Shown: positions 23,749 through 40,045 of the stretch, in pieces
How positions within the stretch are numbered: position 1 is the stretch's first letter
Layout: every line of letters starts with the position of its first letter
Source: a virus
Virus record (IMG/VR): IMGVR_UViG_3300033145_003433
Coordinates: 1 to 43,368 of that record
Direction: 5' to 3' (one strand)
Length of the DNA stretch: 43,368 bases
The notes under the pieces: generated by a model
Seen by the model: the letters and a program-made list of their open reading frames with translations, nothing else
Database searches by the model: none
What the model was told of the DNA's origin: nothing
Program-made: the position numbers and the translations under genes

Positions 23749-25204
23749 TTGCTTTGTTCTCCATAGCTGAAGGGTTGTTTTTGTTGAGGTCGTCGCTGCC
23801 AAGGCCAAGCTCACGCATCAGGTTCTTTTCGCGAGCGATCTGGCGGAGTTCTTCTTCCCAGTCACGGCCTTGACGGGCGTATTCGTAGGCGAGTGTGGTG
23901 GTATTGCTTGCAAGGCGGAGTTTCTGGGCGTTGGCTTCCTTGTAGGGATCAACATGCTCCATCCCGTCCCAGAACCACTGATGCGGCGGCAGGTTTCGGC
24001 TGACAGGTTTGTTTGACGCCAGCAGATATTCCGTTAGCCAGACGTGCAGAATCCGGTCGAGAACGGTGCGGGCGATAAAATCCTGATCCACCCTGATCGC
24101 CTTAAAATAGGTCTGATGGTCAAGCCGCCCGGACGAGTAGTTGTAGCCGGAGGAATTACCAGCCGCGATGTTGTACGGCATGTTCAGGCAGCGGGCGATT
24201 TCGTTGAGAATCTCGTGCTTGAATTCGGCGTAGGTCGTCGCGGGTTGCTCGGGTTGAAGCTGGCTCATCTTCCAGCCACCCGGCATGGTGAGCAGCATGT
24301 TTCGCTCAAGCTCGATCAAGTCCATCGGTTCGACAGCGTCGGCCTCGCCGGATGCGGGCGCGTCGGTGTAGAGAATGCCCGCGAAATTGGCGGCGGATTC
24401 AGCGGCGGTGATAACCGCGAGCGTGAACCGTCGCAGTTGTGCGAATAGCGGCAAGGCCGGAGTGATCTCCGGAATTCCGCGATGCAACTGCGGGCGATCC
24501 GAGCGGAAGCAGTGAATCATCGCGTTGGCGGGGATAATGTTCGCGTCTTCACTGACGCTGAACGATTGCCCGCCGGGATGCTTTTTCAAAACGCGATAGC
24601 TGACAGGATTGCCGTGTTCGTCGAGCTTGACGCCGTCGATGTCGTTGTCTCTGGGTGTAAAGGTCAGTTCGCCCGCCACCTGATCCGCTTCAATCAGTTG
24701 CACATCCATCTGGATCGCGTGGTTGATTTTGGGGTTGGCCATCAATAACGCAAAGGATTCGCCATCCTGACAGCGTGCCATGCGCATCGTGCGGAGTTTT
24801 TCCGGCAGACCGACGACGTTTGACCATGCGGCAAAATCGCGTTCCACTTGACGGTTCAATTCGATATCGTCGCTGAGCAGTTGCAATCGCGGGCCGGTGC
24901 CGATGGTGTCGTTGGCAATCGTCAGAACGATCCCGCGAGCGTAGGAATTGTTGGCCACTTCATAGCGGCTGCGCTCACGAAGTTGGCGGCGTACTTCCGG
25001 CGAGGCGGCAAGGTCGGCGGAGAATCCATCGGCGGCCGCCCAGTGCTTTTGATTGTCATGGGTGGTCTGCGCGGCGTCGAATCGTCCCCGCCCGAAATTC
25101 AGCCCGTACCGCTGGCACCCTCGCCAGAAACCGCCATGGGCCGATTGGCTCTGCGAGCTATTTCGCCGGAACAAGCCGGTAATATTGTTCAAAAGTCCCG
25201 CCAC
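23741..25204 (-). CDS. Phage portal protein (lambda B family)
   Basis: A 487-residue portal of the lambda gpB type. It has the N-terminal Arg-rich entry (GFWRGCQRYGLNFGRGRFDA), a helical LRERSRYEVANNSYARGIVL, the clip-and-stem core (MIHCFRSDRPQLHRGIPEIT), and the conserved MPYNIAAGNSSGYNYSSGRL tail motif that closes lambda-type portals. Twelve copies form the DNA channel at one vertex and dock the terminase. It begins with GTG; AGGAG is 11 bases upstream. It ends in the start of the protease-capsid gene. Confidence 0.95.
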   Translation of the reverse strand: MAGLLNNITGLFRRNSSQSQSAHGGFWRGCQRYGLNFGRGRFDAAQTTHDNQKHWAAADGFSADLAASPEVRRQLRERSRYEVANNSYARGIVLTIANDTIGTGPRLQLLSDDIELNRQVERDFAAWSNVVGLPEKLRTMRMARCQDGESFALLMANPKINHAIQMDVQLIEADQVAGELTFTPRDNDIDGVKLDEHGNPVSYRVLKKHPGGQSFSVSEDANIIPANAMIHCFRSDRPQLHRGIPEITPALPLFAQLRRFTLAVITAAESAANFAGILYTDAPASGEADAVEPMDLIELERNMLLTMPGGWKMSQLQPEQPATTYAEFKHEILNEIARCLNMPYNIAAGNSSGYNYSSGRLDHQTYFKAIRVDQDFIARTVLDRILHVWLTEYLLASNKPVSRNLPPHQWFWDGMEHVDPYKEANAQKLRLASNTTTLAYEYARQGRDWEEELRQIAREKNLMRELGLGSDDLNKNNPSAMENKANE

Positions 25205-25209
25205 GCTCT

Positions 25210-25404
25210 TTACGCTCCTGACGCTTTCATCTTGGAAATCCGAATTCCGCCCATGCCTTTGGCCGTAGCCTTCTTGGATGCCAGATAGCGATCCGCCTCG
25301 ATTTGGTCTTTGAGCGAATGCTGCTCGACCTCGCCGCTATCGCCCCGAACCCGCTTGGGTTCTGTGGCGTTTTGTTCTATGGATTGCTGAAGTTCATCCG
25401 CCAT
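25210..25404 (-). CDS. Small gpW-like head-tail connector
   Basis: A 64-residue protein between terminase and portal. I use MADELQQSIEQ as start because AAGGA is nine bases upstream; the longer frame only covers the intergenic repeat. The line VEQHSLKDQIEADRYLASKK then GGIRISKMKASGA is the style of the small (about 60-residue) proteins placed here in lambda-like phages (gpW/connector position). The C-terminal Lys/Arg tail could contact DNA. Confidence 0.7.
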   Translation of the reverse strand: MADELQQSIEQNATEPKRVRGDSGEVEQHSLKDQIEADRYLASKKATAKGMGGIRISKMKASGA

Positions 25405-25446: not shown

Positions 25447-25478
25447 ATTTCTTACCCGGCGCGTAGGCCAACTGTCGG
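25447..25478 (-). promoter_or_regulatory. 32-bp two-block motif, copy A (candidate phage promoter)
   Basis: In plus orientation: ATTTCTTACCCGGCGCG, an 8-base variable spacer (TAGGCCAA), then CTGTCGG. On the minus strand, which is the sense strand here, it reads CCGACAG, 8 bases, then CGCGCCGGGTAAGAAAT. CCGACA and TAAGAA are 18 bases apart, a -35/-10-like pair. The copy lies in the gap between the terminase stop and the connector gene, 42 bases upstream of the connector ATG, so it would start the structural operon. Copies B and C are at 30550 and 38458. Confidence 0.65.
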
Positions 25479-25517
25479 AGAGCGGACAACTTTTTTGGAA
25501 AAACCACAGGGGATGGT

Positions 25518-27788
25518 TCAACGGCGGGAATTACGCTTGATATCGGAGAGCTTCAAACGCTTGGCGACGGGCTTGGAGATTTCCTGCGTGCCGGGCAGAA
25601 TCGCCCCCTGAATGCTGGCGGCGACCGCGCAACCTACAATTCCATCGAACCAGTGGTTGTCGTGGGCTTCCGGGCGGAGCTTCCATTCGTCAACAGTTCG
25701 ACCTCGGCCTGAGGTCTTGACGCGATATTCTGCGGTGAGATGTTCGGCGAAAAGTTGATGACGTGCCGGATCGCGGCCATGCAGAGATAGGCAACCCCGG
25801 TCACCCATCACCGCCGCTAATCGAGCGTGGATGAATGATTTCCAGTAGTTGGTGTCATACAAGACATGGCGAATCGCCCGCTTGCCGTGGACATTTGGAA
25901 TCCGCCAGTTATGACCAACCCGGTCACCATGCTTCTTCTTGTATTCGGCAAAAGGCGTGCTGGATGCCCCGACATAGCGACCGTGACTTGGATACAAAAC
26001 CGCGGCATGGTTTGACTGGCGACAGAACTGATAGACCACGTCGGTTGATGTTCCCCAGTTGGCGTCGATCAGACAGCGTTCGATTTTCATGATCGCGCCG
26101 TCGTCACGCTTCCATTCCTTGGAAAGATACTCGCCGGTCAGCGTTTCGAGTCCGGCGTAGATCGAACCTTCCAGACCCGCTCCTTTTTTCTCGTCCAGCA
26201 AAGTCGGACGGGCGTCACGAAGCGTGAAATATCGCCGCCGCTGGTCTGGGTAGGCTCCATAATCGACCACATAGCCGGTAAAATCCGATTCCCACGCCGC
26301 GACAACAAAGAACAGCAATTTGCCCTGAACATCGATAAACATCGTCAGGTGGTTACAGCCGATTGGAATCTCGCCAATCTTCTGGCCGTTGAGTTTCTGG
26401 GCGATCTCATCGACGGTAAGCTGTTCGTCTTCACCAATGTTCTCCGGCAAGGGTTCGTTCTGATATTCCGCCCAGAACGCCGTCTCATCCTGCAATTTCA
26501 GGTTCATCGCGTGCTGAATGGCACTGGCTTCATCATGATTGAATCGCGGCAACCAGGCCACCTTCGCTCCGGCGTCCATCGCTTCCTGATTGGCTCTGTA
26601 AAATGCGGTGGCCTCCCGCAGATCGCCGTGGATACGTAGGGAATCAGCTCGGATTTCGGCGTAACGATCCCAGAGCTTTTCATCTTCAGGAAAGGCATAG
26701 ACCATCTTGGTTCGCTCGCCGTTCCATTCGGGATGTTTTTCCGTATCGAGAATCCGGTCGGCCATATCGCCGGGGCGGATCACGGTGCATGGCATGATGC
26801 CGCTGATTTTTTGCCCCGGCCCGGCGAGCCCCAGCACCGCGCCCGCGAGAATACGCTCACGGTTGGCGCACTGGCTAAGCGACCGGGCCGATTCATCGGT
26901 CTGCGGGTCGTCGAGAATAACAAGCGAAGGCCGAACCGTCTGGCCATCGGGACGCTTGAACTTCATGCCGCGAATTCGACCTGTGATTCCCGCCACGCGA
27001 ATGACCGCTCCCGAGGCGGGCGAACCTTCAATCGTCGGCAGAACCACCTCGTTGGCCGTCCAGCTGATTTGCGTGCGATTACCTTGGTAAAGTTGACCAC
27101 CACAGCGGTTGGCGATTCCCTCGAGACAATGGATCGGGTAACAGATCGCCGGAAAATCTTCCAACAACAGTTCGTTGGATTCCAGTTCGGCCTTGATCGA
27201 ATCGAGCATACTCAAGGCGTGACCTTCATCGCTGCCGATGAGCGTTACAAAATCACGGTGTCCATAAACCATCGCCCAGAGACAGGCTGTTTCAGCAAGG
27301 GTCGATTTACCACTCCCGCGCGGCATGGCCATCGCGAACAATCCGCCATGCAAGACCGCCTGCTCGATTTTGGCGATTACGCGAAGGTGATCATCAGACC
27401 ATTCGAGGTTGAAGGTCAGCGGAAAGTAGCTTTCACAAAACAGCCGGAAATTGTCACGGCAATCCTCCATTCGCTTTGAATCGATTACCGCTGGCAGTTC
27501 ACCGATATCACGTCCCGCCTGCGACAAGGCGGCGTTGCGAGCGCGGGCGGCTTCCTTCATCGCTTCGTAATCGCGCGTTTCGGTTTCTGTTTTCTCGCGG
27601 TGGCGTTCATCCACCAGCCACGCCAGATACTTGAACAGGTTCACCGTCTTGCCATCCGGCGAAATACGAAAGCCCGCCTGCTGGCGATGCCTGAAAACCT
27701 TGGTGCCCTCGGCCACCGTGCCAAGGCTGGTCGAATTTAGCAGCCGCACCAGTTCGGAGGGCTTGAGTTGGGTCGGATCAATCGCCAT
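25518..27788 (-). CDS. Terminase large subunit
   Basis: A 756-residue packaging motor. Residues 10-60 form a helical HTH-like N-terminus (LKPSELVRLLNSTSLGTVAE; GFRISPDGKTVNLFKYLAWL). The ATPase has Walker A at 155-163 (PRGSGKST) and a Walker B with catalytic acids at 289-294 (LVILDD). The C-terminal nuclease has an acidic residue in MFIDVQGKLLFFVVA and another in CLIDANWGTSTDVV. The last 60 residues (SGRGRTVDEWKLRPEAHDNH) close the nuclease fold. It cuts concatemeric DNA and pumps it through the portal. The N-terminal HTH resembles the preceding small protein, so DNA recognition may be split between the two. Confidence 0.95.
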   Translation of the reverse strand: MAIDPTQLKPSELVRLLNSTSLGTVAEGTKVFRHRQQAGFRISPDGKTVNLFKYLAWLVDERHREKTETETRDYEAMKEAARARNAALSQAGRDIGELPAVIDSKRMEDCRDNFRLFCESYFPLTFNLEWSDDHLRVIAKIEQAVLHGGLFAMAMPRGSGKSTLAETACLWAMVYGHRDFVTLIGSDEGHALSMLDSIKAELESNELLLEDFPAICYPIHCLEGIANRCGGQLYQGNRTQISWTANEVVLPTIEGSPASGAVIRVAGITGRIRGMKFKRPDGQTVRPSLVILDDPQTDESARSLSQCANRERILAGAVLGLAGPGQKISGIMPCTVIRPGDMADRILDTEKHPEWNGERTKMVYAFPEDEKLWDRYAEIRADSLRIHGDLREATAFYRANQEAMDAGAKVAWLPRFNHDEASAIQHAMNLKLQDETAFWAEYQNEPLPENIGEDEQLTVDEIAQKLNGQKIGEIPIGCNHLTMFIDVQGKLLFFVVAAWESDFTGYVVDYGAYPDQRRRYFTLRDARPTLLDEKKGAGLEGSIYAGLETLTGEYLSKEWKRDDGAIMKIERCLIDANWGTSTDVVYQFCRQSNHAAVLYPSHGRYVGASSTPFAEYKKKHGDRVGHNWRIPNVHGKRAIRHVLYDTNYWKSFIHARLAAVMGDRGCLSLHGRDPARHQLFAEHLTAEYRVKTSGRGRTVDEWKLRPEAHDNHWFDGIVGCAVAASIQGAILPGTQEISKPVAKRLKLSDIKRNSRR

Positions 27789-27978
27789 AGCCCATCTCCC
27801 GAACCAGCCAGGCGGCGTATTCGATCATGTTAATTGTGCCATCGGCCGCCACCGGCGCACCGGCTTCGATGTCGGCGGCGATGGTTTCGTCGGAAACTTC
27901 CCGCGAGCCGGATTTTCTGAGGATTTCAGCCAGCTTTGGGGGCGAAATCGTGGTGATTTTGGGGGTTTCTTCGGTCAT
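27778..27978 (-). CDS. Terminase small subunit-like protein
   Basis: A 66-residue protein started at MTEETPKITTISPPKLAEIL; a longer start at 28011 (MCSQL) is possible. The body reads LAEILRKSGSREVSDETIAA then GAPVAADGTINMIEYAAWLV, the same order as the N-terminus of the terminase large subunit: an HTH-like turn, then a G-x-N-M/L-x-x-Y-A-A-W-L-V helix. Its stop overlaps the terminase large start by 11 bases. Position and resemblance make a small-terminase or terminase-recognition role likely. The gene is short for a classical small terminase (usually over 100 residues). Confidence 0.65.
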   Translation of the reverse strand: MTEETPKITTISPPKLAEILRKSGSREVSDETIAADIEAGAPVAADGTINMIEYAAWLVREMGYGD

Positions 27979-28121
27979 ATCTCTTGCCCCGTCCGCGAGT
28001 TGCGAACACATCGTAACTCATTGCAGAATAACAAGTTAATTGCCTTGATGTGTTTTGGGATTGAGGTGATGTGTGACTGTTGAACACGAAACGTAACCCA
28101 TTGACAAGAAAGGACATAACA

Positions 28122-28388
28122 ATGCGAATCACCAAGATTGAAATGGAAGGCCGCGACGGCCATTACGCCATCGTCAGCCGCAAACGAGACAGTGAGACTA
28201 TCGAGGTTGAAATTCTCCTGCCGGACTATCACGCGACTCACACCGTGGCAGCTAATGATAAAGGTGAAATTGACACTATTGCTCGCGTCATTCAACACAA
28301 GCTCGAAGGTTCCAACGCTAATGAAACGCAGCTGGAAGATTACTGCTGTCGGCTTTTGGATATGAGTGACAGTTCTCTGCTTCAATAA
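28122..28388 (+). CDS. Small conserved phage protein, counter-oriented
   Basis: An 88-residue protein started at MRITKIEMEGRDGHYAIVSR, since AAGGAC is seven bases before this ATG; an upstream TTG could extend it by 14 residues but has no ribosome binding site. The protein is a mix of strands and helices (ETIEVEILLPDYHATHTVAA; IDTIARVIQHKLEGSNANET). I do not recognise a family, although small 'MRITKIEMEGR'-type proteins seem to recur in this phage group. It is the first of two plus-strand genes in a minus-strand region. A regulatory or DNA-associated role is only a guess. Confidence 0.65.
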   Translation: MRITKIEMEGRDGHYAIVSRKRDSETIEVEILLPDYHATHTVAANDKGEIDTIARVIQHKLEGSNANETQLEDYCCRLLDMSDSSLLQ

Positions 28389-28406
28389 CCAAGAAAGGAA
28401 GAAATC

Positions 28407-28757
28407 ATGTCTACCAAAAAAACTAGCACACGGGCGAAAAGAACCACCAAGGCGACCAGAAAGGCCAAATCTAAAACAAAACGCGACACGGGCGAATCTG
28501 TGGCGACAGTGGCCAAACCTGATGCCAAACCGCTGTCGCTTTTGAACGCAGCCGCGATTGTTCTGGAAGCGTGTGACAAGCCGCTGTCCTGCAAGGAGAT
28601 TATCGAAAAGGCCGTTGACGCTGGTATCTGGAAACCCGGTGCGGGCAAGACGCCTGCCAATACGCTTTACTCGTCCATCCTCCGCGAAATCGCCAAGAAG
28701 GGAGCAGACAGTCGATTCGTCAAAGCCGAGAGGGGGAAATTCAAATTGTCTTCTTGA
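28407..28757 (+). CDS. HARE-type winged-helix protein
   Basis: A 116-residue protein. Its N-terminal 40 residues are almost all Lys, Thr and Arg (AKRTTKATRKAKSKTKRD), a histone-H1-like tail. The rest is a compact winged helix: LSLLNAAAIVLEACDKPLSC, then KEIIEKAVDAGIWKPGAGKT-PANTLYSSILREI and SRFVKAERGKFKLSS. This matches the HARE-HTH (HB1/ASXL/restriction endonuclease) domain, which senses DNA or modification and often tags restriction or chromatin proteins. AAAGGAAG is eight bases before ATG. It follows the 88-residue gene by 18 bases, so the two form a short plus-strand operon. DNA compaction or regulation is inferred. Confidence 0.8.
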   Translation: MSTKKTSTRAKRTTKATRKAKSKTKRDTGESVATVAKPDAKPLSLLNAAAIVLEACDKPLSCKEIIEKAVDAGIWKPGAGKTPANTLYSSILREIAKKGADSRFVKAERGKFKLSS

Positions 28758-28767
28758 TGCGACCACA

Positions 28768-29139
28768 TTATTTCCCTCTACCTTGCCTCGACAATAAAAC
28801 GCCGGGGCAATTCTTCGGCCTGATAAAGCGCACCGGCAGATTCAACTCTTTAGCGATGGCGATTTCCGCCTGAACGCCAATCGATTCCTCCCATCCGTAC
28901 AATTGCAACACCACCAGCTCATCGCAACGCTCAAGCATGGCGCGGTCATACCGCCGCCAGAACGCCCAGTCGCCGGGCAAGTCGTAGGCCGCGATTGGGT
29001 GCGTATGGGCAATCGGGCTGAAGACCAATTCACCACGTCGCATCATCTCCGCCGCTTGCTGACAGACGGCTTGGAATCGTCGCTCTTGAATTTGCCTGTC
29101 GGGATGCGAGTACGGTGAGGCAAGATAGATTAACCGCAT
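28768..29139 (-). CDS. DUF1937 nucleoside-deoxyribosyltransferase-like protein
   Basis: A 123-residue protein of the DUF1937 family: LIYLASPYSHPDRQIQERRF, then VFSPIAHTHPIAAYDLPGDW, then DELVVLQLYGWEESIGVQAE with IAIAKELNLPV. The fold belongs to the nucleoside 2-deoxyribosyltransferase-like superfamily, and such genes are common in phages near DNA modification enzymes. Its ATG lies inside the last codons of the ParB-methyltransferase gene (10-base overlap) after GAGGCGG, so the two are co-translated. Nucleotide handling is inferred from the fold. Confidence 0.9.
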   Translation of the reverse strand: MRLIYLASPYSHPDRQIQERRFQAVCQQAAEMMRRGELVFSPIAHTHPIAAYDLPGDWAFWRRYDRAMLERCDELVVLQLYGWEESIGVQAEIAIAKELNLPVRFIRPKNCPGVLLSRQGRGK

Positions 29140-30482
29140 GGAACCGCCTCAACCGCTGGCGTGAGTGTTTGCCAGTCGCATCCTTCACCGTGAACAAACT
29201 CCGCCCAACGCTTGCGAATGACATCGCAATATGGCGGGTCGATTTCCATCAGGTAGCCATTGCGACCAGTCTGTTCACACCCCATTAACGTACTGCCAGA
29301 ACCACCGAACAGGTCGAGGATGTTTTCACTTTTCTTGGATGAATACTGAATCGCCAGCACCGCCAGCTCGACCGGCTTTTCGGTCAGGTGAATCATGCTC
29401 TGTGGGTTGACCTTCTTGACCTCCCACAAATCGCGGGCGTTGTTGGGGCCAAAGAAACGATGGGCCGCGCCTGATTTCCATCCGTAGAAGCACCACTCGT
29501 GCGCGCCCATGAAATCTTTGCGGGTCAGCACCGGGTGCATCTTGTTCCAGATAATCGCCTGGCTGAAATACAACTCGTGTTTCTTCAATACCGGCGGGTA
29601 GTTGGCGCAGTTGGCGTACCCGCCCCAGATATAGAATCCATGGCCGGGTAGAAGCACACGGGCGATATTGCCGAACCAACCGTCGAGAAGTTTGTCGAAC
29701 TGCTCATCGCTGACAAAGTCGTTCTCCAGCGGACGGTCTTTCGGACGCAGTTTCTTGTGGGTCGCGTGGGCCTTTTCCGGGTGGCGTTCGACGTCCATCT
29801 TCTGGTGGTGCGTCACTCCACCATTGGCGGGAAAGCTCGAAAGACCAGCGGCGATGGCGTTGTTACTGCGAGGTTCAACTTTGACGTTATACGGCGGGTC
29901 GGTATTGACCAGATGGATCGGTTGGCCGCCGAGAAGAATATCCAGATCGCCGGGATTAGCCGAGTCGCCGCACATCAGTCGGTGCGAACCGAGCTGATAT
30001 ACCTGCCCGCGAACGGAGACCGCTTCATCCGGCGGTTCAGGAACAGCGTCGGGGTCGGTCATACCTTCGGTAACGGTCGCCTCGCTGTCGCCTTCGAGCA
30101 GACGATTGAGTTCTTCGTCATCGAACGCCAGCATACCGAGATCGAAATCGGCATCCTGCAGGTCAGCCAGTTCGATCTTGAGCTGATCGTAATCCCACTC
30201 GGCCAATTCCGCTGTGCGGTTGTCCGCCAGACGATAAGCCTTGACCTTCTCCGGCGATAAATCCTTGGCGACATGGACGGGTACTTTGTCCAGCTCAAGA
30301 CGCTGGGCGGCTTTGTAGCGGGTATGCCCGCAGATAATCACGCCATCTTCATCCACCACGATGGGCTGGCGAAAACCGAACTCGCGGATACTGGCAGTCA
30401 CCGCTTCGACTGCGTTGTCATTGAGACGGGGATTGTTTTCGTAGGGTTTGATGCTGGCAAGTTCGCGTTCAGTAATCCGCAT
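29130..30482 (-). CDS. ParB-domain DNA methyltransferase (beta-class N6/N4)
   Basis: A 450-residue protein started at MRITERELASIKPYENNPRL; GGAG is nine bases upstream, and the ATG at 30551 is part of the upstream repeat. Residues 1-120 are a ParB/Srx-like domain (VIICGHTRYKAAQRLELDKV). The methyltransferase has motif IV DPPYNV (about 194-199) before motif I DLFGGSGSTLMG (about 386-396), the permuted order of beta-class adenine or N4-cytosine enzymes. Such ParB-fused methyltransferases are frequent in phages, where they may protect DNA or switch gene expression. It has no restriction partner nearby. Copy B of the 32-bp motif lies 68 bases upstream. Confidence 0.93.
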   Translation of the reverse strand: MRITERELASIKPYENNPRLNDNAVEAVTASIREFGFRQPIVVDEDGVIICGHTRYKAAQRLELDKVPVHVAKDLSPEKVKAYRLADNRTAELAEWDYDQLKIELADLQDADFDLGMLAFDDEELNRLLEGDSEATVTEGMTDPDAVPEPPDEAVSVRGQVYQLGSHRLMCGDSANPGDLDILLGGQPIHLVNTDPPYNVKVEPRSNNAIAAGLSSFPANGGVTHHQKMDVERHPEKAHATHKKLRPKDRPLENDFVSDEQFDKLLDGWFGNIARVLLPGHGFYIWGGYANCANYPPVLKKHELYFSQAIIWNKMHPVLTRKDFMGAHEWCFYGWKSGAAHRFFGPNNARDLWEVKKVNPQSMIHLTEKPVELAVLAIQYSSKKSENILDLFGGSGSTLMGCEQTGRNGYLMEIDPPYCDVIRKRWAEFVHGEGCDWQTLTPAVEAVPCG

Positions 30483-30549
30483 ATTCAAAATCTCCGGGTT
30501 GAATTCAGGGTTTCTCCATCGTCGCAACGCATGCGAGATTGGCTTACCC

Positions 30550-30581
30550 ATTTCTTACCCGGCGCGAACGCCAACTGTCGG
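30550..30581 (-). promoter_or_regulatory. 32-bp two-block motif, copy B (candidate phage promoter)
   Basis: In plus orientation ATTTCTTACCCGGCGCG, spacer AACGCCAA, CTGTCGG; same blocks and spacer length as copies A and C. It precedes the ParB-methyltransferase start by 68 bases on the minus strand. The spacer with the flank reads GGCGTTCGCGCC, a tetraloop-like hairpin; that pairing is not preserved in copies A and C, so the conserved element is better read as DNA than RNA. Next to it, an 8-base inverted repeat (30579-30586 with 30636-30643) flanks a 49-base gap. Confidence 0.65.
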
Positions 30582-30681
30582 GAACCCGCTTGTTTCTTAT
30601 GCGGTTCAAAACAAACTCTGATTAACAAGGCCGCTGGTTCCCGCCGCCTCAGGAGCTGATTTCGCCCGGAAGGAACCATCG

Positions 30682-30953
30682 AACTCCGCATTCTCCCGCG
30701 CATATACACACGCGCTGTCGCGCGAGGGGGTGCGGGAATCTATGTGGGGTTTCAATGATGAAACACACTATCTCTTTATAAATACAGCGATTAAGGCAAA
30801 CAAAAACTCCACATTAACTCAGCATTAACTCCGCATAACTCAGCATTTGAAGGCTATCGATGCGGAGTTTTTTAAGGATCGGGGCATGAGAAAACCCCAC
30901 AACGCCACATTTTGAGAGTGGCCATGCGGGGTTTTGTGGAGTTTTGCTGAGTT
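30682..30953. repeat. AACYCMRCA short-repeat array (iteron/origin candidate)
   Basis: In the 478-base gap 30483-30960 (no gene) the motif AACYC[CA][GA]CA occurs about eleven times. On plus it starts at 30682, 30805, 30816, 30827, 30837 and 30893; on minus it occupies 30741-30752, 30858-30869, 30922-30932, 30932-30943 and 30943-30953. Four plus copies at 30805-30847 form a tandem set with 11, 11 and 10 base spacing, one helical turn. The AT-rich stretch 30762-30804 (TCTTTATAAATAC) lies just left of it. A short CG dyad (CGCGCTGTCGCGCG) is at 30711-30724. Clustered, phased, mixed-orientation repeats beside the primase gene look like iterons of an origin or a multi-site operator. Confidence 0.55.
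30891..30935 (-). terminator. Rho-independent terminator after the primase-helicase gene
   Basis: On the minus strand the stem runs CCCCGCATGGCCAC, loop TCTCAAAAT, GTGGCGTTGTGGGG, with two mismatches and one G-U pair, followed by TTTTC. It begins about 25 bases after the stop of the primase-helicase gene, where the early leftward transcript would end. Because AAAA lies on the other side, it may also act weakly on plus-strand transcripts. The array entry covers its overlap with the AACYCMRCA repeats. Confidence 0.7.
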
Positions 30954-30960
30954 ACTTGTA

Positions 30961-33501
30961 TCAGAGAATTCGATACTGTGGACGGGTCGGCCCACGGGAT
31001 GATGGCTTGAGTTCGATGCGTTCCTGAGCCAGAAGTGACTCGCGGACATCCTGAATTTTCTTTTCCGGCCAGCCCAACCGACGCGCAAGTTCCCAGTGTG
31101 GCATGAAGACGTCGGGGCCTTTGCGATGCTGATGCTTGGTCAGGAACTCGATAAACCGCTTGCAGTCAGACTGGAACTCGCTGTCGGCGACGTAGAGGTC
31201 GGCCATGAAAAGCATACGCTTGGTCTGATGCTCGACCAGCCGCCACGCCCAGTTCATGCCATCAGCAGTGATTCGCGGCGCTCGGTGATTTTCACTGCAT
31301 GCGTAAAGCAAAGCGAGTTTGCGGGTCTTTTCAAACGCTCTGGCCCAGATCGCCATTTTTGTTTCATCGCCGAGTCGTTGAGCGTTTTCGTAGGCGTCGT
31401 CGGTCAACTCCCAAATCTCATCGCTTCGCCCTGACGCTTCGGGTGTGTCCTCGATTTTGATTGGATCGGGATGAAACCCGCTCAGATTACCGCCACACAT
31501 ACCACCGGGATTGAAATTCGCCCAGTACTTGGCTGTCTCAATGATTGATTCGGGTACGGGAATATCAGCGGGTTTGCAGCCGCGACATCGCGGACCAGCG
31601 TCGAGAACCAAAGTTCGAGCGAACAGTCCATTGTTAAGCATCCGCCCGCTAAGCGCTTTGTAAAAATATTGCGGCACGGCGGTTCCGTAAAGAGACAACG
31701 ACGGCTGATGAATAATCAACGGTTCGGTTTGTCCGGCCTTTTTCCGCAACGGGTATCTGGATGTCGCCGAGCTGAACATTTTCAACAGAATCTGCATCAT
31801 CATTTCGTTTCGACCGTCGCGAGCCTTGTTGATACTGCCGAGAATCGCGTCGAATTCATCAGTCTGAAACAACATCGACTGATTATGAAACATGGCGTCC
31901 TCGATGCCTTCGCCGGAAGCGAAACCATCACCAATACCACGCATCAGCCCAACCAAGAAAGCGATGTCGCTGTTGACCTCTCGCGGACGGTTTTTACCGA
32001 CCCCGCTGCTGGCCAACGCCACAACATAAATGTTGCTGCGGTTCTTCATACAGTCTTTGACTCGTCGGGCGGCCAGATACGATTGCAACGCCAACGCGCC
32101 GCAAAACGCCATCGTGCGGTTTGGATATGGTGAAGTCGCCAGCGTGTGTTCGATGACTTCACCAATGAAACCAGGCACATTCAGTAAATCGTCGGGCATC
32201 AACCCCGGATCGGCGATGGTGGTTGGGGTGTCCGAATCATCTGACGCATATTCAGCATGGTTCGCCAGAGATGAAGATATATGCGGATTGTCGGCCAGCT
32301 GTGCGGGGATGTCCGGCGCACCATTGCCGATCTGGGCCATAATACCGGAGATATCCACACCATCGGCGGGGTTGTTTGTATATCCGTAACCCTCCGCCAA
32401 TAATGCCAACATGGCCGCTGAAAAGTCGTTATCGTGCTCCAGAATCGCGTAGACACCGAAGCGGGAGTAGCCTTTGCGTGATTCGAATGGTGTGGCGTTA
32501 TCGCTCCAGACATAGAACACCGTTCCATCACAGGTCGCTGAGTGCTGCCCGTTGTTTTTTCCGGGTCGCCACCAATATTGCTGATCGGATTCACTTTTGA
32601 GCGTCCAGCCATGTTTTGTGAGGATTGGAGCGATGTCGCCTCGCTGGTTGAAGTCGTCTATGGACGATGATAATTCGTAGTTCGTTACGACTTGATGGCC
32701 TATATCGCCATAAGTCGTAACATATTGCGAGTTAGCCAAAGGAGTTGGATTAGCCTCGGCAACCGAGTTTGACGGACTTTTCCCCGCTAGTTTATGCAGC
32801 AAATCCGTCGAGACAATCCGCATTTCATCGGGCTTGTCGAGAATCTCCGCGATTCTGTGCGGTCTGGTTTCGGTCGAGTCGCCTTTGCGGTTCCATGTTC
32901 CCGGTAGACGACAAATACGGGCCGGGTTATGAACACTCAAATCGATATGCACATTATCTGTTGAACATGGCCACAGTGCCTGCAAACATCGCTGGACAAG
33001 GCCGTCATCGTCAGTGGACAGAACGATCCGATAAAGCAACTGTGTGCCATTTCCAGAATCGACCGCCATTGGCTCTGGCCAATCCATCGACGCCAAGCCG
33101 GATTTAATCTCCATCGCCTTATCGAACGCCAGCGACTTTTCGTTGTCGGTCGCGCTAATGCCTGCAGGTCGCAACGGATCAACGTCAATGAGCAGCCACC
33201 GCCGACGCAGAATATCCTTGTCGCTGGTGGTCTCACGGTTCTTCGCTTTCTTGAAGCGGTTGTTCGCGCGTGCCAGCAGATCGGGATTAACCGGGTTCAG
33301 TGTGACATAAACACCGCCATAGGTTTTGAAATTCGCCAGCAGATTGGGAACGTCGTCGATGTGATCGTAATCGAAGTATCCGCTCTCGGTATGCTGCCAG
33401 TTGGAAATTGGAAGCACCGCATCGAGAACGCGAATCTCGAACACATCACCCGCTTCAAAAAGTGTTCGCAAGGCGGTTATAATTGTTGTTTCGTTAGCCA
33501 A
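30961..33501 (-). CDS. Primase-helicase-like replication protein
   Basis: An 846-residue protein that starts with TTG; GAGGCGAC sits before it and no ATG is near. Residues 95-205 carry the archaeo-eukaryotic primase pattern: RRWLLIDVDPLRP (metal acids D106 and D108), VDSGNGTQLLYRI at 148-160, and HNPARICRLPGTWNRKG at 191-207. A C-terminal DUF3987-like helicase has Walker A ASSGVGKNRP near 493-502 and MLFQTDEFDAILG as Walker B-like. The last 60 residues form a helix-turn-helix (ELARRLGWPEKKIQDVRESL) for origin or DNA binding. It would lay primers and unwind DNA at the origin. The adjacent repeat array is the obvious place to look for its site. Confidence 0.8.
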   Translation of the reverse strand: MANETTIITALRTLFEAGDVFEIRVLDAVLPISNWQHTESGYFDYDHIDDVPNLLANFKTYGGVYVTLNPVNPDLLARANNRFKKAKNRETTSDKDILRRRWLLIDVDPLRPAGISATDNEKSLAFDKAMEIKSGLASMDWPEPMAVDSGNGTQLLYRIVLSTDDDGLVQRCLQALWPCSTDNVHIDLSVHNPARICRLPGTWNRKGDSTETRPHRIAEILDKPDEMRIVSTDLLHKLAGKSPSNSVAEANPTPLANSQYVTTYGDIGHQVVTNYELSSSIDDFNQRGDIAPILTKHGWTLKSESDQQYWWRPGKNNGQHSATCDGTVFYVWSDNATPFESRKGYSRFGVYAILEHDNDFSAAMLALLAEGYGYTNNPADGVDISGIMAQIGNGAPDIPAQLADNPHISSSLANHAEYASDDSDTPTTIADPGLMPDDLLNVPGFIGEVIEHTLATSPYPNRTMAFCGALALQSYLAARRVKDCMKNRSNIYVVALASSGVGKNRPREVNSDIAFLVGLMRGIGDGFASGEGIEDAMFHNQSMLFQTDEFDAILGSINKARDGRNEMMMQILLKMFSSATSRYPLRKKAGQTEPLIIHQPSLSLYGTAVPQYFYKALSGRMLNNGLFARTLVLDAGPRCRGCKPADIPVPESIIETAKYWANFNPGGMCGGNLSGFHPDPIKIEDTPEASGRSDEIWELTDDAYENAQRLGDETKMAIWARAFEKTRKLALLYACSENHRAPRITADGMNWAWRLVEHQTKRMLFMADLYVADSEFQSDCKRFIEFLTKHQHRKGPDVFMPHWELARRLGWPEKKIQDVRESLLAQERIELKPSSRGPTRPQYRIL

Positions 33502-33512
33502 TAGTCGCCTCG

Positions 33513-35255
33513 CTAAAACGGAATATCATCTTCGTGCCAGCCGGTTACCGCCATGACAGAACCGTAATCATCTGTTGTGTCAGCACCATCGTTCCAGCCC
33601 GGTTCGGGGTAATACTCCGGTTTGTCGCCGACTTCGTGGCGGATTACCCGGTCGAATTTCTCATCAGAAACGCTGCGAACGGTAATCGATTTTGTTTTCG
33701 CTAACGCGCCATCTTCAGCCAGAATTACCGCTTCATGGGCGTTCTTAGGCGGCGGACACATTGACCGTTCACGCCACCATTTCTCAAATTTCTGCCTTGC
33801 CCAGCCGGTATGTTCGGGGCACACCCATTCGCTAATCCACTGGTTCCAACCGACCTGGTATTCAATCCGCATCGTTTTGGGAGCGGTCTCTTCGGCTCCC
33901 CGCTTAGTGTGAACGCTGAAGGCCACATCAGTTACGTCATAATCGGTGTCGGTGATTTCACCGGAGAGGATGCCTTCGCCGCTTGCGGTTGATTCCAGCT
34001 CGGTTTGCGGCGGCGGAAATTCGTGATTACATTCCGGGCAGTGACGATAGGCGGCGTGAATGAGCGCATGGCAGTTCGGACACTCCTTGGCAGGCACGTC
34101 ACCGTTGCCGGGCGTTTTATCGGTAACCACAACCGCATCGACAGGCCCGTGTCGCAGGACATTGCCGCCATAGTCGAGAATCAGACAATCGTCCTTGCCC
34201 GGATGCAGGCGTGTACCTCGACCGACCATCTGGACATACAGTCCAACCGACGCTGTTGGCCTCAGAAGAACCACACAATCCACATTGGTCGCGTCGAAAC
34301 CGGTGGTCAGGACATTGACGTTGGCGAGATATTTTAAGGGTGGTTTTACATCGCCAAATAGCCCGTCTTTGACTTGTTCGCCTTTGAACCGGGCGAGCAG
34401 TTCTGCCCGCTGGCCCGCAGGCGTGTCGCCAGTTACCACTCCGCATTCAGTGCCGCTTCGACGGGAAATTTCCACCGCGACATGCTGACAATGATCAACG
34501 CTGGTGGTAAAGATCAGAACGCTTTTGCGGTTATGGGTCAGTTCGACAATTTCCGCGCAGGCGGATGAAACCAGCGACTGCGTATCCATCGCCGCTTCCA
34601 TCTCGGACGCGATAAACTCACCGCCGCGAATATGCAGACCGTCGAGATTCGCTTTCGCTCGCCCGCCACGACTCTTTAGCTTGCAGAGATACCCCTGAAC
34701 GATCATCTCCCTGATGCCCGCCTCGTAGCAGACATGATTAAGGATATTCTCCGGCTGACAGATTTCGCCACCCTTGAGCCGGTACGGTGTCGCGGTTAGA
34801 CCGATCACCCGCAGGCGTGGATTGACGACCATCGCTTCGGTGAGAAACTGGCGATACATTCCCTCGCCATCCGGCGGAATAAGATGCGCCTCGTCCACGA
34901 TAACCAGATCAAACTTGCCAAGCTCGCAGGCCCGGCGATAAATGCTCTGAATCCCCGCAACAATAACAGCATGGTCGGTGTCGCGTCGGTTCAGACCAGC
35001 CGAGTAGATACCAACGTCCAACTCCGGAGCGTGAAGCGATACTTTCTCAGCGTTCTGCTGAAGCAACTCTTTGACATGGGCGAGAATGAGAACTCTGCCA
35101 GACCATCGCTCCACGGCGTCTGTCGCGATTTGAGCCAGACAATGTGCTTTACCAGTTCCGGTCGGCAAGACGATGCACGGATTATCGTCTCGCTGCCGCA
35201 GATGCCGATAAACAGCGTCAACGGCTTCTTGTTGGTAAGGTCGCAGACGAATCAT
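33513..35255 (-). CDS. SF2 DEAD/DEAH-box helicase with zinc ribbon, atypical Walker A
   Basis: A 580-residue helicase. Motif I is PTGTGKAHCL at 31-40, with Ala in place of the usual Ser/Thr after the Lys; motif II is DEAH at 121-124; motif III GLTATPYR follows. The second RecA domain has FTTSVDHCQHV, then NVNVLTTGFDATNVDCVVLL and the motif VI QMVGRGTR. A zinc ribbon (CPNCHALIHAAYRHCPEC) near residue 400 is likely for DNA binding. It resembles phage replicative or recombination helicases of the type III restriction-like family. ATGA overlap joins it to rusA. If the Ala is real, ATP hydrolysis may be altered. Confidence 0.9.
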   Translation of the reverse strand: MIRLRPYQQEAVDAVYRHLRQRDDNPCIVLPTGTGKAHCLAQIATDAVERWSGRVLILAHVKELLQQNAEKVSLHAPELDVGIYSAGLNRRDTDHAVIVAGIQSIYRRACELGKFDLVIVDEAHLIPPDGEGMYRQFLTEAMVVNPRLRVIGLTATPYRLKGGEICQPENILNHVCYEAGIREMIVQGYLCKLKSRGGRAKANLDGLHIRGGEFIASEMEAAMDTQSLVSSACAEIVELTHNRKSVLIFTTSVDHCQHVAVEISRRSGTECGVVTGDTPAGQRAELLARFKGEQVKDGLFGDVKPPLKYLANVNVLTTGFDATNVDCVVLLRPTASVGLYVQMVGRGTRLHPGKDDCLILDYGGNVLRHGPVDAVVVTDKTPGNGDVPAKECPNCHALIHAAYRHCPECNHEFPPPQTELESTASGEGILSGEITDTDYDVTDVAFSVHTKRGAEETAPKTMRIEYQVGWNQWISEWVCPEHTGWARQKFEKWWRERSMCPPPKNAHEAVILAEDGALAKTKSITVRSVSDEKFDRVIRHEVGDKPEYYPEPGWNDGADTTDDYGSVMAVTGWHEDDIPF

Positions 35256-35605
35256 TTTTTCCGCAACCTCACGATCACCTTGCCGCTGGGTCTATCAGGC
35301 TCGCGCATGTGACATTCAAAGTCTTTGATTTGCGAATCGTCGCGGTACGCGCCGCCGTGCTGTAGCGCGTCCCACAAACTTTTTTGAATGTTGTCGAGAT
35401 CGCGTCTGCGCTTGTCCGGCGGGTATGCGTCCACTGACATCGCCAGTTCGCCATTAAGCGGACGGAAATGCAGATCGCGAAGGATCGCGCATATCTCAGT
35501 GCGATATTTTCGGCCTTCACGGCTGATCAACGTGCGGTGGCCAACCCGGCGGTAATAATGATTCACACTCGGCGGCCACGGTAATTCTATGAGTAGTCTG
35601 TCCAT
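35252..35605 (-). CDS. rusA: RusA Holliday-junction resolvase
   Basis: A 117-residue RusA: LPWPPSVNHYYRRVGHRTLI at the start, the catalytic acids D69 and D71 in KRRRDLDNIQKSLWDAL and D90 in GAYRDDSQI, and Lys75 in the loop. RusA cuts four-way junctions at CC steps to clear recombination intermediates before packaging. Length fits the family (about 120). GAGG is seven bases before ATG. It sits with DUF669, Sak4-like and nuclease genes, forming the recombination module. Confidence 0.95.
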   Translation of the reverse strand: MDRLLIELPWPPSVNHYYRRVGHRTLISREGRKYRTEICAILRDLHFRPLNGELAMSVDAYPPDKRRRDLDNIQKSLWDALQHGGAYRDDSQIKDFECHMREPDRPSGKVIVRLRKK

Positions 35606-35698
35606 GAGATTACCTCAAAAGATTGGGCGGACGCTGAGCGTTCCAAGTGGAAAACACCCAGACGCCCGCCCTTGGTTAGAAGAAGTCTCCAGCGATGA

Positions 35699-36181
35699 TT
35701 AGCGTTGCCACGGAGGCGTGGCGTTGGTCGCTTGGGCCGCGGGAGCCATAGCGCGTGGGGTCGCGGCTGAATTCTGCAACGCCGCTTCCTTCTTCTCATA
35801 ACCTTTGATTTCGTTGGTAATCTCGCCGGTGTCTTCGCGTTTTTTGCAGGTAACCTTGATCGAAAGCGGCAGATTGTGCAGCTCGATGGAATCCTGTGGC
35901 TGCATGACACCAACAGCCCGACAGATGGCGGATAGTTCGCCACGTGCAATCTGCACGGCTTGGGCGTTGGGGTTGTCGAGATTCAACCTCGCCCAAACCT
36001 TTCGACCTTTGTACTGACCGTCGAGAATATCGAAGGTCAGTTCGAGGTAATGTCCGTTGCCGTTTTTGGTCGGCTTCATTTCCGATTCGGTAATAGCGGC
36101 GATGTATTTGCCAGCCGGGATCGGATCAAAACTGCTGGCTGGATCGACAGTGTTCGCGTCAAAATTGTTCAGATATGCCAT
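35699..36181 (-). CDS. DUF669 single-stranded DNA-binding-like protein
   Basis: A 160-residue DUF669 protein. It opens MAYLNNFDANTVDPASSFDP then IPAGKYIAAITESEMKPTKN and GNGHYLELTFDILDGQYKGR, with KVWARLNLDNPNAQAVQIAR. The OB-like core is followed by an Ala/Pro/Thr tail that ends PPWQR, resembling the acidic-aromatic tip of SSB proteins but ending in Arg. DUF669 proteins accompany phage annealing or recombination ATPases and are thought to bind ssDNA. GGAG lies nine bases before the ATG. Confidence 0.9.
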   Translation of the reverse strand: MAYLNNFDANTVDPASSFDPIPAGKYIAAITESEMKPTKNGNGHYLELTFDILDGQYKGRKVWARLNLDNPNAQAVQIARGELSAICRAVGVMQPQDSIELHNLPLSIKVTCKKREDTGEITNEIKGYEKKEAALQNSAATPRAMAPAAQATNATPPWQR

Positions 36182-36187
36182 TGTTTA

Positions 36188-36937
36188 TTACTCCTCATGT
36201 TTGGGGTTAGTGTTGGTTTGTGAAAAAGTCTGTTTGAGTCCCGCGCCAATCGCTTCGGCGAAAGATGTCCAATCGAAGGGGAGCGATTCCGGCAGGTGAT
36301 ACCGATTCTTGGCCAAGGCTCGCGGGGTCTCACGAGTCGTGAGCATTCGATTGCCCTCACCATCCATGCGGGCAAGGCAGACAAAGTCCGACCATTCGAC
36401 CATCACATTGAGATAGCCCTCCGGCAGTTCGGGCGTGGTCTTTTCGACTGTAATGCCGTCGATGTCGGTAATCTCGGTGCGTCTGGTATGAGCCAGAAGA
36501 AGCACGGCGATGCCGCGAGCGACGATTCGATCCAGAAGCGGCAAGAGAATCTGATAGACGTAGTTCTTCAAAACCTGCTTACCGTTGCCGTAGCCGCCAT
36601 GACTGCGGTTCAGCGTCGAGTCCGTCTTGCCGCCCGCGCAGCCGGAGACATGTTCTTCGATACGTCGCAGAAGCCAATCGACCGAATCAATCGCGATAGC
36701 TTGGTACGGATGATCTTCGGCTTCTATAGCGATAAGCCACTGATGAATTTCCGGCCAGGTCGCCAAATACGGTGTTCGCTGGCAGACAATCGCGCCCGCG
36801 CCATTTTCGCAATCGATAATCAGCGAGTTTGTCGCCGACGCGCCAAAGGTGGTCTTGCCCACACCCGGCGGCCCGTAGATGATGCCTTTCGGTGCCGACG
36901 GAGCGGGGTCGGTAATAATGTTGTTCAGTAACGTCAT
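36188..36937 (-). CDS. Sak4-like ATPase (phage recombinase / annealing)
   Basis: A 249-residue RecA-fold ATPase started at MTLLNNIITDPAPSAPKGII; GGAG is ten bases upstream, and any longer frame is a shadow of the exonuclease gene. Walker A is GPPGVGKTT at 22-30, Walker B YQAIAIDSVDWL near 78-89. Further motifs (LLLAHTRRTEITDIDGITVE) fit the Sak4/AAA_24 nucleotide-binding group, single-strand annealing proteins of phages. It is followed by DUF669, a usual partner. It would act with the exonuclease in recombination-dependent replication. Confidence 0.85.
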   Translation of the reverse strand: MTLLNNIITDPAPSAPKGIIYGPPGVGKTTFGASATNSLIIDCENGAGAIVCQRTPYLATWPEIHQWLIAIEAEDHPYQAIAIDSVDWLLRRIEEHVSGCAGGKTDSTLNRSHGGYGNGKQVLKNYVYQILLPLLDRIVARGIAVLLLAHTRRTEITDIDGITVEKTTPELPEGYLNVMVEWSDFVCLARMDGEGNRMLTTRETPRALAKNRYHLPESLPFDWTSFAEAIGAGLKQTFSQTNTNPKHEE

Positions 36938-36959
36938 TTGATTGTTTCTCCAATAAGGA

Positions 36960-37760
36960 TTAAACGGTGTCATAGATTCGGATTGCTTCGTAGCCGGTCG
37001 GCCAAACTTGGGTTTCCATGCAGACCTTGAGCCGCTGTATGGCTGACTCGTTTTCGGTTTGAGCGAAATCGAGAGCTTCCGGAGAGATTCGCCACACGCC
37101 GCAGCGGAACGGTTCTTTTTTCTCGACAGCGATGATGTGGGCGGCGGCGTCAATGCCTGTCGCCTGCCGAAGAACCGAGCGATAGAACGCGACCTGATGC
37201 AGATAGCCGAAACGCCGGGCGTCGGATTCAAACCAAGTCAGGTCATCGCAGGTTTTGAGGTCAACCAGACCACACTCAGGCTGGTAGTAATCCACGCGAA
37301 TCTGACACGGCAGGCCGCAGTAATCAGTACGAACAACACCTTCGGCGAAGCCGTCTGTGATCAGTGCGGGCGCTTCGGTATGAACCAGAACCGCTCGTTC
37401 CATCATTTCCAGTGTAATAGCGTCATCGTTGGTGACAGCGGATTCTTTGTCCGATTCAGCCAGCCATTGGGCATACGCTTTTGTGGATGAACCGAACGGA
37501 TTGCCTGTCTTGGGATTCGTTGGCCCGCCGATGGCGTATTCACGTTCAAAGGTTTCACGACCTTCAAGAATCAAGGTGTGCGCCGCCCGGCCAAACGCAT
37601 AGGCTGGCGAGTCCCTGTCCACAATCAGGCCGCTGTGCTTTTTCCAGTAGAGATAGGGGCACTTGCGGAAGTCGCCGAGTTGATGACTCGATAAGTTTTC
37701 ACGCGATTTGGCGTGATAGACTTCCGCCGATTCTTCGATCAGCCAACCGGGTCTTTGCAT
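36960..37760 (-). CDS. PD-(D/E)XK exonuclease (RecE / Cas4-like)
   Basis: A 266-residue nuclease started at MQRPGWLIEESAEVYHAK, which has a near-perfect AAAGGAGGT eight bases before it. The core has GRAAHTLILEG with His61, IRVDYYQPECGLVDLKT with acids D157 and D167 and K169 (the D-x(n)-D/E-x-K signature), and a Q-x-x-x-Y helix HQVAFYRSVLR. This is the DUF3799/RecE-type exonuclease that makes 3' tails for single-strand annealing. Four cysteines typical of Cas4 iron-sulphur clusters are not conserved (KCPYLY and a few others only), so a cluster is doubtful. Confidence 0.88.
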   Translation of the reverse strand: MQRPGWLIEESAEVYHAKSRENLSSHQLGDFRKCPYLYWKKHSGLIVDRDSPAYAFGRAAHTLILEGRETFEREYAIGGPTNPKTGNPFGSSTKAYAQWLAESDKESAVTNDDAITLEMMERAVLVHTEAPALITDGFAEGVVRTDYCGLPCQIRVDYYQPECGLVDLKTCDDLTWFESDARRFGYLHQVAFYRSVLRQATGIDAAAHIIAVEKKEPFRCGVWRISPEALDFAQTENESAIQRLKVCMETQVWPTGYEAIRIYDTV

Positions 37761-37762
37761 GG

Positions 37763-38053
37763 TTACCGACCTCCTTTGGCCGGATGCCATGTCATACTCA
37801 GTCTGCCGGTCGCTTCGCAGATTCGACTTTCACCATTGACGATCAATCCCTGATCGCGAAGTTCTGGAAGTCTGCGTGATGGGACATGTCGCTCCAGCCC
37901 ACAAGCGATAGCGATTTCAGCGGCGGTCTGGCCCGGATGAGAGTTCACCCGAGCCAGACAGATCGCCCGTTGAGACGCCGCCCGGCCTGAGGATTCGGCT
38001 TCGCTGGCGGCTTGGCGGGAAGTGATCGGGTCGGTTCGACGAGACTTAGCCAT
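37763..38053 (-). CDS. Small winged-helix regulator
   Basis: A 96-residue protein, started at the second of two start codons (GTG then ATG) because GGAGGT is spaced correctly from this one. The start MAKSRRTDPITSRQAASEAE and VNSHPGQTAAEIAIACGLER-HVPSRRLPELRDQGLIV form a winged helix of the MarR/IclR style common in phages, with TSRQAA opening. Its position between exonuclease and the small 122-residue gene suggests transcription control or a DNA-bending role within the early operon. Confidence 0.7.
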   Translation of the reverse strand: MAKSRRTDPITSRQAASEAESSGRAASQRAICLARVNSHPGQTAAEIAIACGLERHVPSRRLPELRDQGLIVNGESRICEATGRLSMTWHPAKGGR

Positions 38054-38421
38054 CACGCCACCTCCTTTGATTTATCGTGTTCAGCACAAACACACGGATC
38101 GCATTTGCCATCGCATGAACACGAATTATTGGATGGGTTTTCGGCATGCGTTTCGTGGACGACCTTGAATGCGTCCTCGCCGAACTCGTGGATCAGAAAG
38201 CCGGTGAAAATCTTTATAACGTCATCGCTGACCTTGCCGCGACACTCGATCACGCAGGCTCGTTTCTCGTTCGAGAACAGGTAGCGGGCTTCCAATCGAA
38301 CCGCCGCCTGACCGTGCAAGGCTTCAGCGGCGATAATCGACAACAGCAGCGTCCCTTCAGCCTGTTCCAGATCGACATCAGGCTTGAACGTGAATTTCTG
38401 AATTGTTTTTGTATGCGTCAT
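38053..38421 (-). CDS. Early protein with C-terminal cysteine cluster
   Basis: A 122-residue protein of unknown family. A helical/strand body (FKPDVDLEQAEGTLLLSIIA; DVIKIFTGFLIHEFGEDAFK) ends in CSCDGKCDPCVCAEHD, six cysteines in 14 residues, which could bind zinc or an iron-sulphur cluster. GGAG lies nine bases before the ATG. It is the first gene after copy C of the 32-bp motif, so it would head the early replication operon if that motif is a promoter. It ends overlapping the winged-helix gene. Confidence 0.65.
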   Translation of the reverse strand: MTHTKTIQKFTFKPDVDLEQAEGTLLLSIIAAEALHGQAAVRLEARYLFSNEKRACVIECRGKVSDDVIKIFTGFLIHEFGEDAFKVVHETHAENPSNNSCSCDGKCDPCVCAEHDKSKEVA

Positions 38422-38457
38422 TTTGAATCTCCATGTCTGCTTGTTTTGGGCGTATCT

Positions 38458-38489
38458 ATTTCTTACCCGGCGCGTGGGTGACCTGTCGG
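38458..38489 (-). promoter_or_regulatory. 32-bp two-block motif, copy C (candidate phage promoter)
   Basis: In plus orientation ATTTCTTACCCGGCGCG, spacer TGGGTGAC, CTGTCGG. It begins 13 bases downstream (minus strand) of the sigma factor stop and 37 bases upstream of the next ATG. The 17-base and 7-base blocks are invariant in all three copies, and only the 8-base spacer changes. It faces the replication/recombination genes. It would be the promoter closest to the sigma gene and could explain how the factor switches on the operon that follows. Confidence 0.65.
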
Positions 38490-38501: not shown

Positions 38502-39092
38502 TTAGAAATAGCCTTCCAAATCCGCCTCGCGAAACGCCTCTCGCAGTGGCTCGATGATGTTCTGGTAGAACGTGGCGCGTTTGATGCCCGCGCGTCTGGC
38601 CGCCTCGCTGATAGACATGCCCTCAAGCAGACACTCACAAACCGACCGCAGTTCTTCGGGCAGTCTTCCAACAACCTGCCGCACGTCGGCGATAAGTTCC
38701 CGCTCCTCCTGACGGCTGCGGGTTTTACCCCGGCAGAATCGCTCGAATTGATCGCTGCTGATACAATCGCCGAGTGTGATTTCCCTGCCGGTGGAATCGT
38801 CGGTCTGGACTGTTGAATCAAGGCTCAAGCATTGGCGATTGGCGACGCTCTTGTCAGAGCAACGGTCACGCAGAATGTTTGCGATCTTGTGTTCGACCAC
38901 TCGTTGGATGAAAGTCGTCAGCTTCGCTTTGTCGCTATTGAACTTGGCGATTCGGCGAAAGAGGTCGGCGTAGAGTTCCTGCTCGATGTCCTTGATGTCG
39001 GCTTGGAGTAGGCCGCATTTGCCGACAAGCTGACGGGCTTTGCATTCGATAAAAGTTTTCGCGTAAGGGTGAAGTTTTTTTTGGGTATCCAT
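38502..39092 (-). CDS. Sigma-70 family RNA polymerase sigma factor (phage)
   Basis: A 196-residue protein of the sigma-70 superfamily. Region 2 is visible at about 30-75: ADIKDIEQELYADLFRRIAK, then FNSDKAKLTTFIQRVVEHKI-ANILR, where the sequence matches the core-binding and -10 helices. Region 4 at about 143-188 has LPEELRSVCECLLEGMSISE then AARRAGIKRATFYQNII, an HTH for -35 contact. AGGAGG is ten bases before ATG. The length is close to ECF-type factors (about 180-200). It would redirect host polymerase to phage genes; the 32-bp motifs are the best target candidates. The alternative, a sigma-like anti-terminator, is less likely. Confidence 0.85.
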   Translation of the reverse strand: MDTQKKLHPYAKTFIECKARQLVGKCGLLQADIKDIEQELYADLFRRIAKFNSDKAKLTTFIQRVVEHKIANILRDRCSDKSVANRQCLSLDSTVQTDDSTGREITLGDCISSDQFERFCRGKTRSRQEERELIADVRQVVGRLPEELRSVCECLLEGMSISEAARRAGIKRATFYQNIIEPLREAFREADLEGYF

Positions 39093-40006: not shown

Positions 40007-40045
40007 TTGACCTTATAGGCGTTAGGTGTTATATTGAGGTGTTAT
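40007..40045 (+). promoter_or_regulatory. lexA promoter with tandem AGGTGTTAT sites
   Basis: TTGACC (40007-40012), a 17-base spacer, then TATATT (40030-40035): a strong sigma-70 promoter. AGGTGTTAT occurs twice, at 40024-40032 (over the -10) and 40037-40045, 13 bases apart in the same orientation. The start codon is 47 bases past the -10, with AAGGA nine bases before it. Direct repeats over the -10 could be the operator of the LexA-like repressor; alpha-proteobacterial LexA also uses a direct repeat, though of a different sequence. Confidence 0.65.

Follow-up and report, generated by a model that had tools for sequence, protein, structure and literature searches.

The viral genome analysed here (the window, i.e., the whole 43,368-base stretch of an IMG/VR virus record) carries three copies of a two-block motif that very probably serve as promoters for an ECF-type sigma factor encoded by the phage itself. 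Sequence comparison further suggests that dozens of related viruses share the same wiring in differing “dialects”, in which sigma and sites would change together. The features on which this reading is built are the following:

25447-25478, minus strand: promoter copy 1 (predicted), with -35 GACA at 25473-25476 and -10 GGTAAG at 25451-25456, before the portal/head/tail block
30550-30581, minus strand: promoter copy 2 (predicted), with -35 GACA at 30576-30579 and -10 GGTAAG at 30554-30559, before the methyltransferase
38458-38489, minus strand: promoter copy 3 (predicted), with -35 GACA at 38484-38487 and -10 GGTAAG at 38462-38467, before the recombination/replication block
38502-39092, minus strand: phage ECF-type sigma factor, 196 aa, sigma2 and sigma4 (NCBIfam, PHROG, Pfam, AlphaFold/Foldseek)
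38053-38421, minus strand: first gene behind copy 3, conserved, function unassigned (ORF, GGAG ribosome-binding site, synteny)
30961-38056, minus strand: recombination/replication block, i.e., exonuclease VIII-like, Sak4-like ATPase, DUF669, RusA, helicase and primase (Pfam/PHROG)
29130-30482, minus strand: ParB-N / N6_N4 DNA methyltransferase behind copy 2, ATG at 30482 (Pfam/PHROG)
25210-25404, minus strand: conserved 64-aa gene, first behind copy 1 (synteny in about 50 relatives; AAGGA ribosome-binding site)
21769-25204, minus strand: portal and head protease/major head protein, behind copy 1 (Pfam/PHROG)
40082-40717, plus strand: LexA-type repressor (LexA DNA-binding and Peptidase_S24 domains), presumed lysogeny switch (Pfam)

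Written as CCGACAG-N8-CGCGCCGGGTAAGAAAT, the motif has three exact matches in the window, all on the minus strand, where 0 are expected. The initial annotation had described three 32-bp copies with 17 and 7 identical bases around an 8-base variable spacer, and all of its positions proved exact; the genome-wide search that it had called for, run here on the 43,368 bases of the window, returned no fourth copy at up to three mismatches. The motif is likewise absent from 100 dinucleotide shuffles of the window, and the 17-base block by itself matches three times against 0.18 expected. Each copy does precede a gene block, at 36-67 bases between the end of the motif and the start of the gene, and all three genes have a ribosome-binding site. 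Between the stop codon of the sigma gene (ending at 38502) and copy 3 (ending at 38489), we count 12 bases rather than the 13 first given.

Judging from its profile matches and predicted fold, the gene at 38502-39092 encodes a real ECF-type sigma factor. The protein scores 44.0 bits against the NCBIfam profile TIGR02937 (sigma70-ECF; cut-off 42.9), which is matched at E<=0.01 by 18/18 aligned relatives, and it also matches PHROG 1740 (sigma; E 8e-15) and Pfam Sigma70_r2 (E 2e-5, above cut-off), while Pfam Sigma70_r4_2 stays below its cut-off. In the AlphaFold model (mean pLDDT 83), helices at residues 9-82 (sigma2) and 127-189 (sigma4), mostly with pLDDT above 85, are joined by a weakly predicted linker; regions 2 and 4 are present and regions 1 and 3 absent. 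Foldseek retrieves sigma factors throughout, including the ECF sigmas SigH, AlgU and RpoE, at a low whole-chain TM (about 0.3) that is due to the uncertain placement of the two domains. Among annotated phage records, the nearest homologues (tblastn) are sigma-like proteins of Wolbachia phage WO (21-25% identity, best E 2e-8).

Scanning viral contigs with the window sigma alone yielded no relatives and the sigma alignment was too diverse for scanning, so the methyltransferase and the terminase were used as anchors. The methyltransferase scans gave 80 viral loci and 80 genome loci, the latter nearly all from Planctomycetota MAGs; the nearest genome locus (L088; methyltransferase 92% identical) lies in a planctomycete MAG labelled Guay, presumably for Guaymas. 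The shared gene order runs from sigma through the 38053-like gene, the replication genes, the methyltransferase, the terminase, the 25210-like gene and the portal to the head genes, and the sigma is present in 67 of the examined sequences (window counted). The relatives are mostly Planctomycetota prophages, and the window appears to be a virus of Planctomycetota-type bacteria. The same phage family also occurs in MAGs with non-Planctomycetota labels (L090, L093, L101, L122, L136, L152; Cyanobacteria, Fimbriimonadales, Bacteroidales, Nevskiales, Vicinamibacteraceae), which are either misbinned planctomycete contigs or signs of a wider host range. Two sigma-like genes per phage contig or locus were seen in L136 and in the L218 contig (L269, L272), with identities to the window sigma of about 40% and 28% in the latter.

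At up to six mismatches, the window motif itself was found, in the first batch of relatives, in only four near-identical phages, which implies that place and layout are conserved and not sequence. What each phage carries instead is a motif peculiar to it, which recurs at two places: immediately after the sigma gene and upstream of the portal operon (e.g., in L011, GTCAcctcgcgtccgaaccgGGTAGG behind sigma and GTCAgctcgaaccgcaaccgGGTAGG before the portal operon). When these two regions were compared phage by phage, the match in 24 of 36 was better than that of all 100 random windows drawn from the locus concerned (0.36 expected), and the other 12 gave no significant pair. The family weight matrix reads GNCA, then 16 largely unconserved bases ending in C-S-G, then [C/G][G/A]TA-GGT, with the spacing fixed at GNCA-N16-[C/G][G/A]TA, and about 50 of 58 relatives have a site equivalent to copy 3 behind sigma. 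A matrix built from post-sigma sites only, with the test phages' own post-sigma sites in its training set, finds the pre-portal site (the equivalent of copy 1) in 28/36 phages at p<=0.01. The family matrix, frozen beforehand, was then applied to 61 unseen loci (terminase-anchored, and without any 1-kb stretch in common with the training loci at 90% identity), where it finds the pre-portal site in 31 at p<=0.01, against 0.6 expected; among the 30 loci that miss this threshold, some probably use different boxes or carry the site elsewhere.

The site upstream of the methyltransferase, sought in the whole family, is not general: an equivalent of copy 2 exists only in the closest relatives (L010, L022, L008, L191 and probably L088). 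In L010 and L022, whose sigmas are 38-41% identical to that of the window, the three-site arrangement is repeated with a different sequence (CCGCCAGTTGG...GGTGAATAAGAT): one site follows the sigma gene or overlaps its end, and the others precede the methyltransferase and the portal operon. In L191, CCGGGTAAGAAAT stands upstream of both the methyltransferase and the 25210-like gene. L218, with a sigma 40% identical and a near-identical recognition helix (ATFYDN, ATFYQN in the window), has GACA...GGTAAGTAACC behind sigma and before the portal operon, as in the window. What holds across the family is a copy behind sigma and another upstream of the portal operon; the methyltransferase copy is limited to close relatives of the window. 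Intermediates such as L191 and L218 place the -10 box of the window at GGTAAG, two bases upstream of TAAGAA, and the CCGACA-18-TAAGAA reading first proposed gives way in the family alignment to GACA and (CCG)GGTAAG, 16 bp apart, in an ECF-type layout. In L010, L022 and L088, the -10 at 16-bp spacing reads TGAA or AGTT, not GGTA, and the core and alignment of this box are less certain there.

The distance between pre-portal sites follows that between the sigma proteins, whose genes lie 13-15 kb away (partial r 0.52-0.54 with terminase, portal or methyltransferase held constant, P 0.0005), and once sigma is known the divergence of these three proteins explains nothing of it. At the post-sigma site, the -35 box follows sigma4 given sigma2 (partial r 0.27, P 0.0005; reverse 0.01, P 0.43) and the -10 box follows sigma2 given sigma4 (0.34, P 0.0005; reverse 0.07, P 0.14); before the portal operon, the association of the -10 with region 2 repeats (0.48, P 0.0005) and that of the -35 with region 4 is marginal (0.17, P 0.04). 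A spacer control was positive in the full set, which points to an effect of close relatives; among 37 representatives with less than 55% sigma identity, the association with sigma persists for the boxes (P 0.0005) and is lost for the spacer (P 0.11). Moreover, the GTCA -35 boxes belong, in 9/9 cases, to the ten sigmas with a PRTTL recognition helix. The sites thus diverge with sigma rather than with terminase, portal or methyltransferase, and behind the sigma gene the -35 tracks region 4 and the -10 region 2. Together with the conserved positions and layout, this makes it most likely that the copies serve the phage sigma as promoters.

This domain-by-domain match is predicted by sigma recognition and would be expected neither of an operator nor of an RNA signal. 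The long invariant 17-bp block of the window and the other DNA-binding proteins encoded nearby (the HARE-HTH protein, the ParB-like domain of the methyltransferase, the LexA-type repressor) could suggest that the motif is an operator for one of these, yet short boxes at a fixed 16-bp spacing, always oriented toward the gene, without a strong dyad (14/25 self-match in one copy) and unexplained by methyltransferase divergence make such a role very unlikely. It is still less probable that the copies serve a sigma of the host (sigma70 or an ECF), with the phage sigma gene there by coincidence: Planctomycetota have many ECF sigmas of their own and the two-block layout would suit them, but the sites differ among related phages along with the phage sigma, and host sigma70 promoters at the copies were rejected after 0/3 passed a scan for TTGACA / TATAAT-like hexamers. 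We give least credence to a role of the motif at the RNA level, where it would signal antitermination or processing in leaders whose transcription starts elsewhere; its position 36-67 nt before start codons and a possible hairpin just downstream in some relatives (L010, L022) are compatible with this, whereas the unconserved spacer, blocks that are explained without pairing, the co-divergence with the sigma domains and an Rfam search of the window without any match all speak against it.

Under the preferred reading, i.e., promoters for the phage sigma, the LexA-type repressor would keep the phage silent, and derepression would allow transcription of the sigma gene, the product of which, by analogy with its family, should bind the host RNA polymerase core. 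As the co-divergence of sites and protein suggests, it would then direct the polymerase to GACA-N16-GGTAAG promoters, region 4 reading the -35 and region 2 the -10, with a conserved CCG just upstream of the latter. Transcription from them would run through short leaders into the recombination/replication block, the methyltransferase and the portal/head/tail block. The position of one site immediately after the sigma gene suggests that the replication block is decoupled from the promoter making sigma. The terminase (25518-28011) lies between copies 2 and 1 without a copy directly upstream, and read-through from copy 2 may transcribe it. The two-element promoter for the phage sigma proposed in the initial annotation is thus well supported by the comparison of relatives, through positions, spacing, matched sequences and domain-specific divergence.

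Several other elements of the window deserve mention. A sigma70-like TTGACC-17-TATATT lies at 40007-40035, upstream of the LexA-type repressor gene. Upstream of promoter copy 2, at 30606-30678 (minus strand), a conserved non-coding element of 73-74 bases (GGTWCYTTCC ... GGCGGGAACAGCCGCC ... CAGAGTTTGTTTTG), which matches no Rfam family, precedes the methyltransferase in about 18 relatives and is possibly a packaging or ParB-type site. Two genes at 28080-28757 (plus strand), between methyltransferase and terminase, run opposite to the operon direction, the second with a HARE-HTH domain. The reading frame of a large serine recombinase (728-2286, plus strand) is broken into two that overlap, with the resolvase domain at 728-1459 and the recombinase and zinc-ribbon domains at 1342-2286; the split is a frameshift or a sequencing error. 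Beside the integrase lies the gene of a GmrSD_N (DUF262) protein (2923-4626, plus strand), likely a restriction-type defence cargo gene. Finally, the end of the structural block (5157-9458, minus strand) encodes a 1433-aa protein with four Laminin_G_3 (concanavalin-like) stretches, likely a tail fibre or adhesin.

Taken together, these predictions amount to a testable transcription programme for a large, apparently unstudied family of Planctomycetota phages. The roughly 50 naturally diverged sigma/promoter pairs that they include, all predicted and in the same genomic context, would help to work out how -10 and -35 boxes are read by sigma regions 2 and 4, and are a possible source of orthogonal promoter systems. 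Several MAGs hold more than one such prophage; in one of them, L100 and L102 share the -35 GGACA and differ in the -10 box (CGTACC, CATACG). It is conceivable, although we hold it to be rather doubtful, that sigma specificity diversified as a form of regulatory insulation, which would keep related prophages in one host from activating one another.

The initial annotation had seen here a candidate for a new system, for which a characterised parallel exists: in Salmonella phage 7-11, the sigma SaPh711_gp47 directs host RNA polymerase to bipartite late promoters, GTAAtg-(16)-aCTA (PMC8948821). A bipartite motif with fixed spacing before phage operons is present in the window too, as are a phage-encoded sigma and a 16-nt gap, the use of the sites by sigma being predicted here. 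Phage 7-11 is, however, a phiEco32-like Salmonella phage with eight promoters and other boxes (PMC8948821), whereas the window belongs to a LexA-bearing prophage-type phage with three predicted promoters, one of them directly behind the sigma gene, that would also serve recombination/replication genes. In phiEco32 itself, gp36 is the sigma for middle and late phage genes, and it uses a single-element promoter (tAATGTAtA) and lacks region 4 homology (as described in PMC8948821), unlike the window, which has both elements and a sigma with both regions. Bacterial ECF (group IV) sigmas such as M. tuberculosis SigH likewise consist of sigma2 and sigma4 only and need strict -35/-10 boxes at rigid spacing (PMC6411747); that of the window differs in being phage-borne, in its predicted control of phage operons and in its boxes (GACA/GGTAAG). 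The sigma-like proteins of Wolbachia phage WO, although the nearest annotated phage homologues, are distant. A search of literature outside the subscription journals found no paper on sigmas of this kind in phages of Planctomycetota; as evidence of absence, this is weak. A phage sigma with bipartite promoters has a known parallel; what is unusual here is the large natural set of predicted sigma/promoter pairs.
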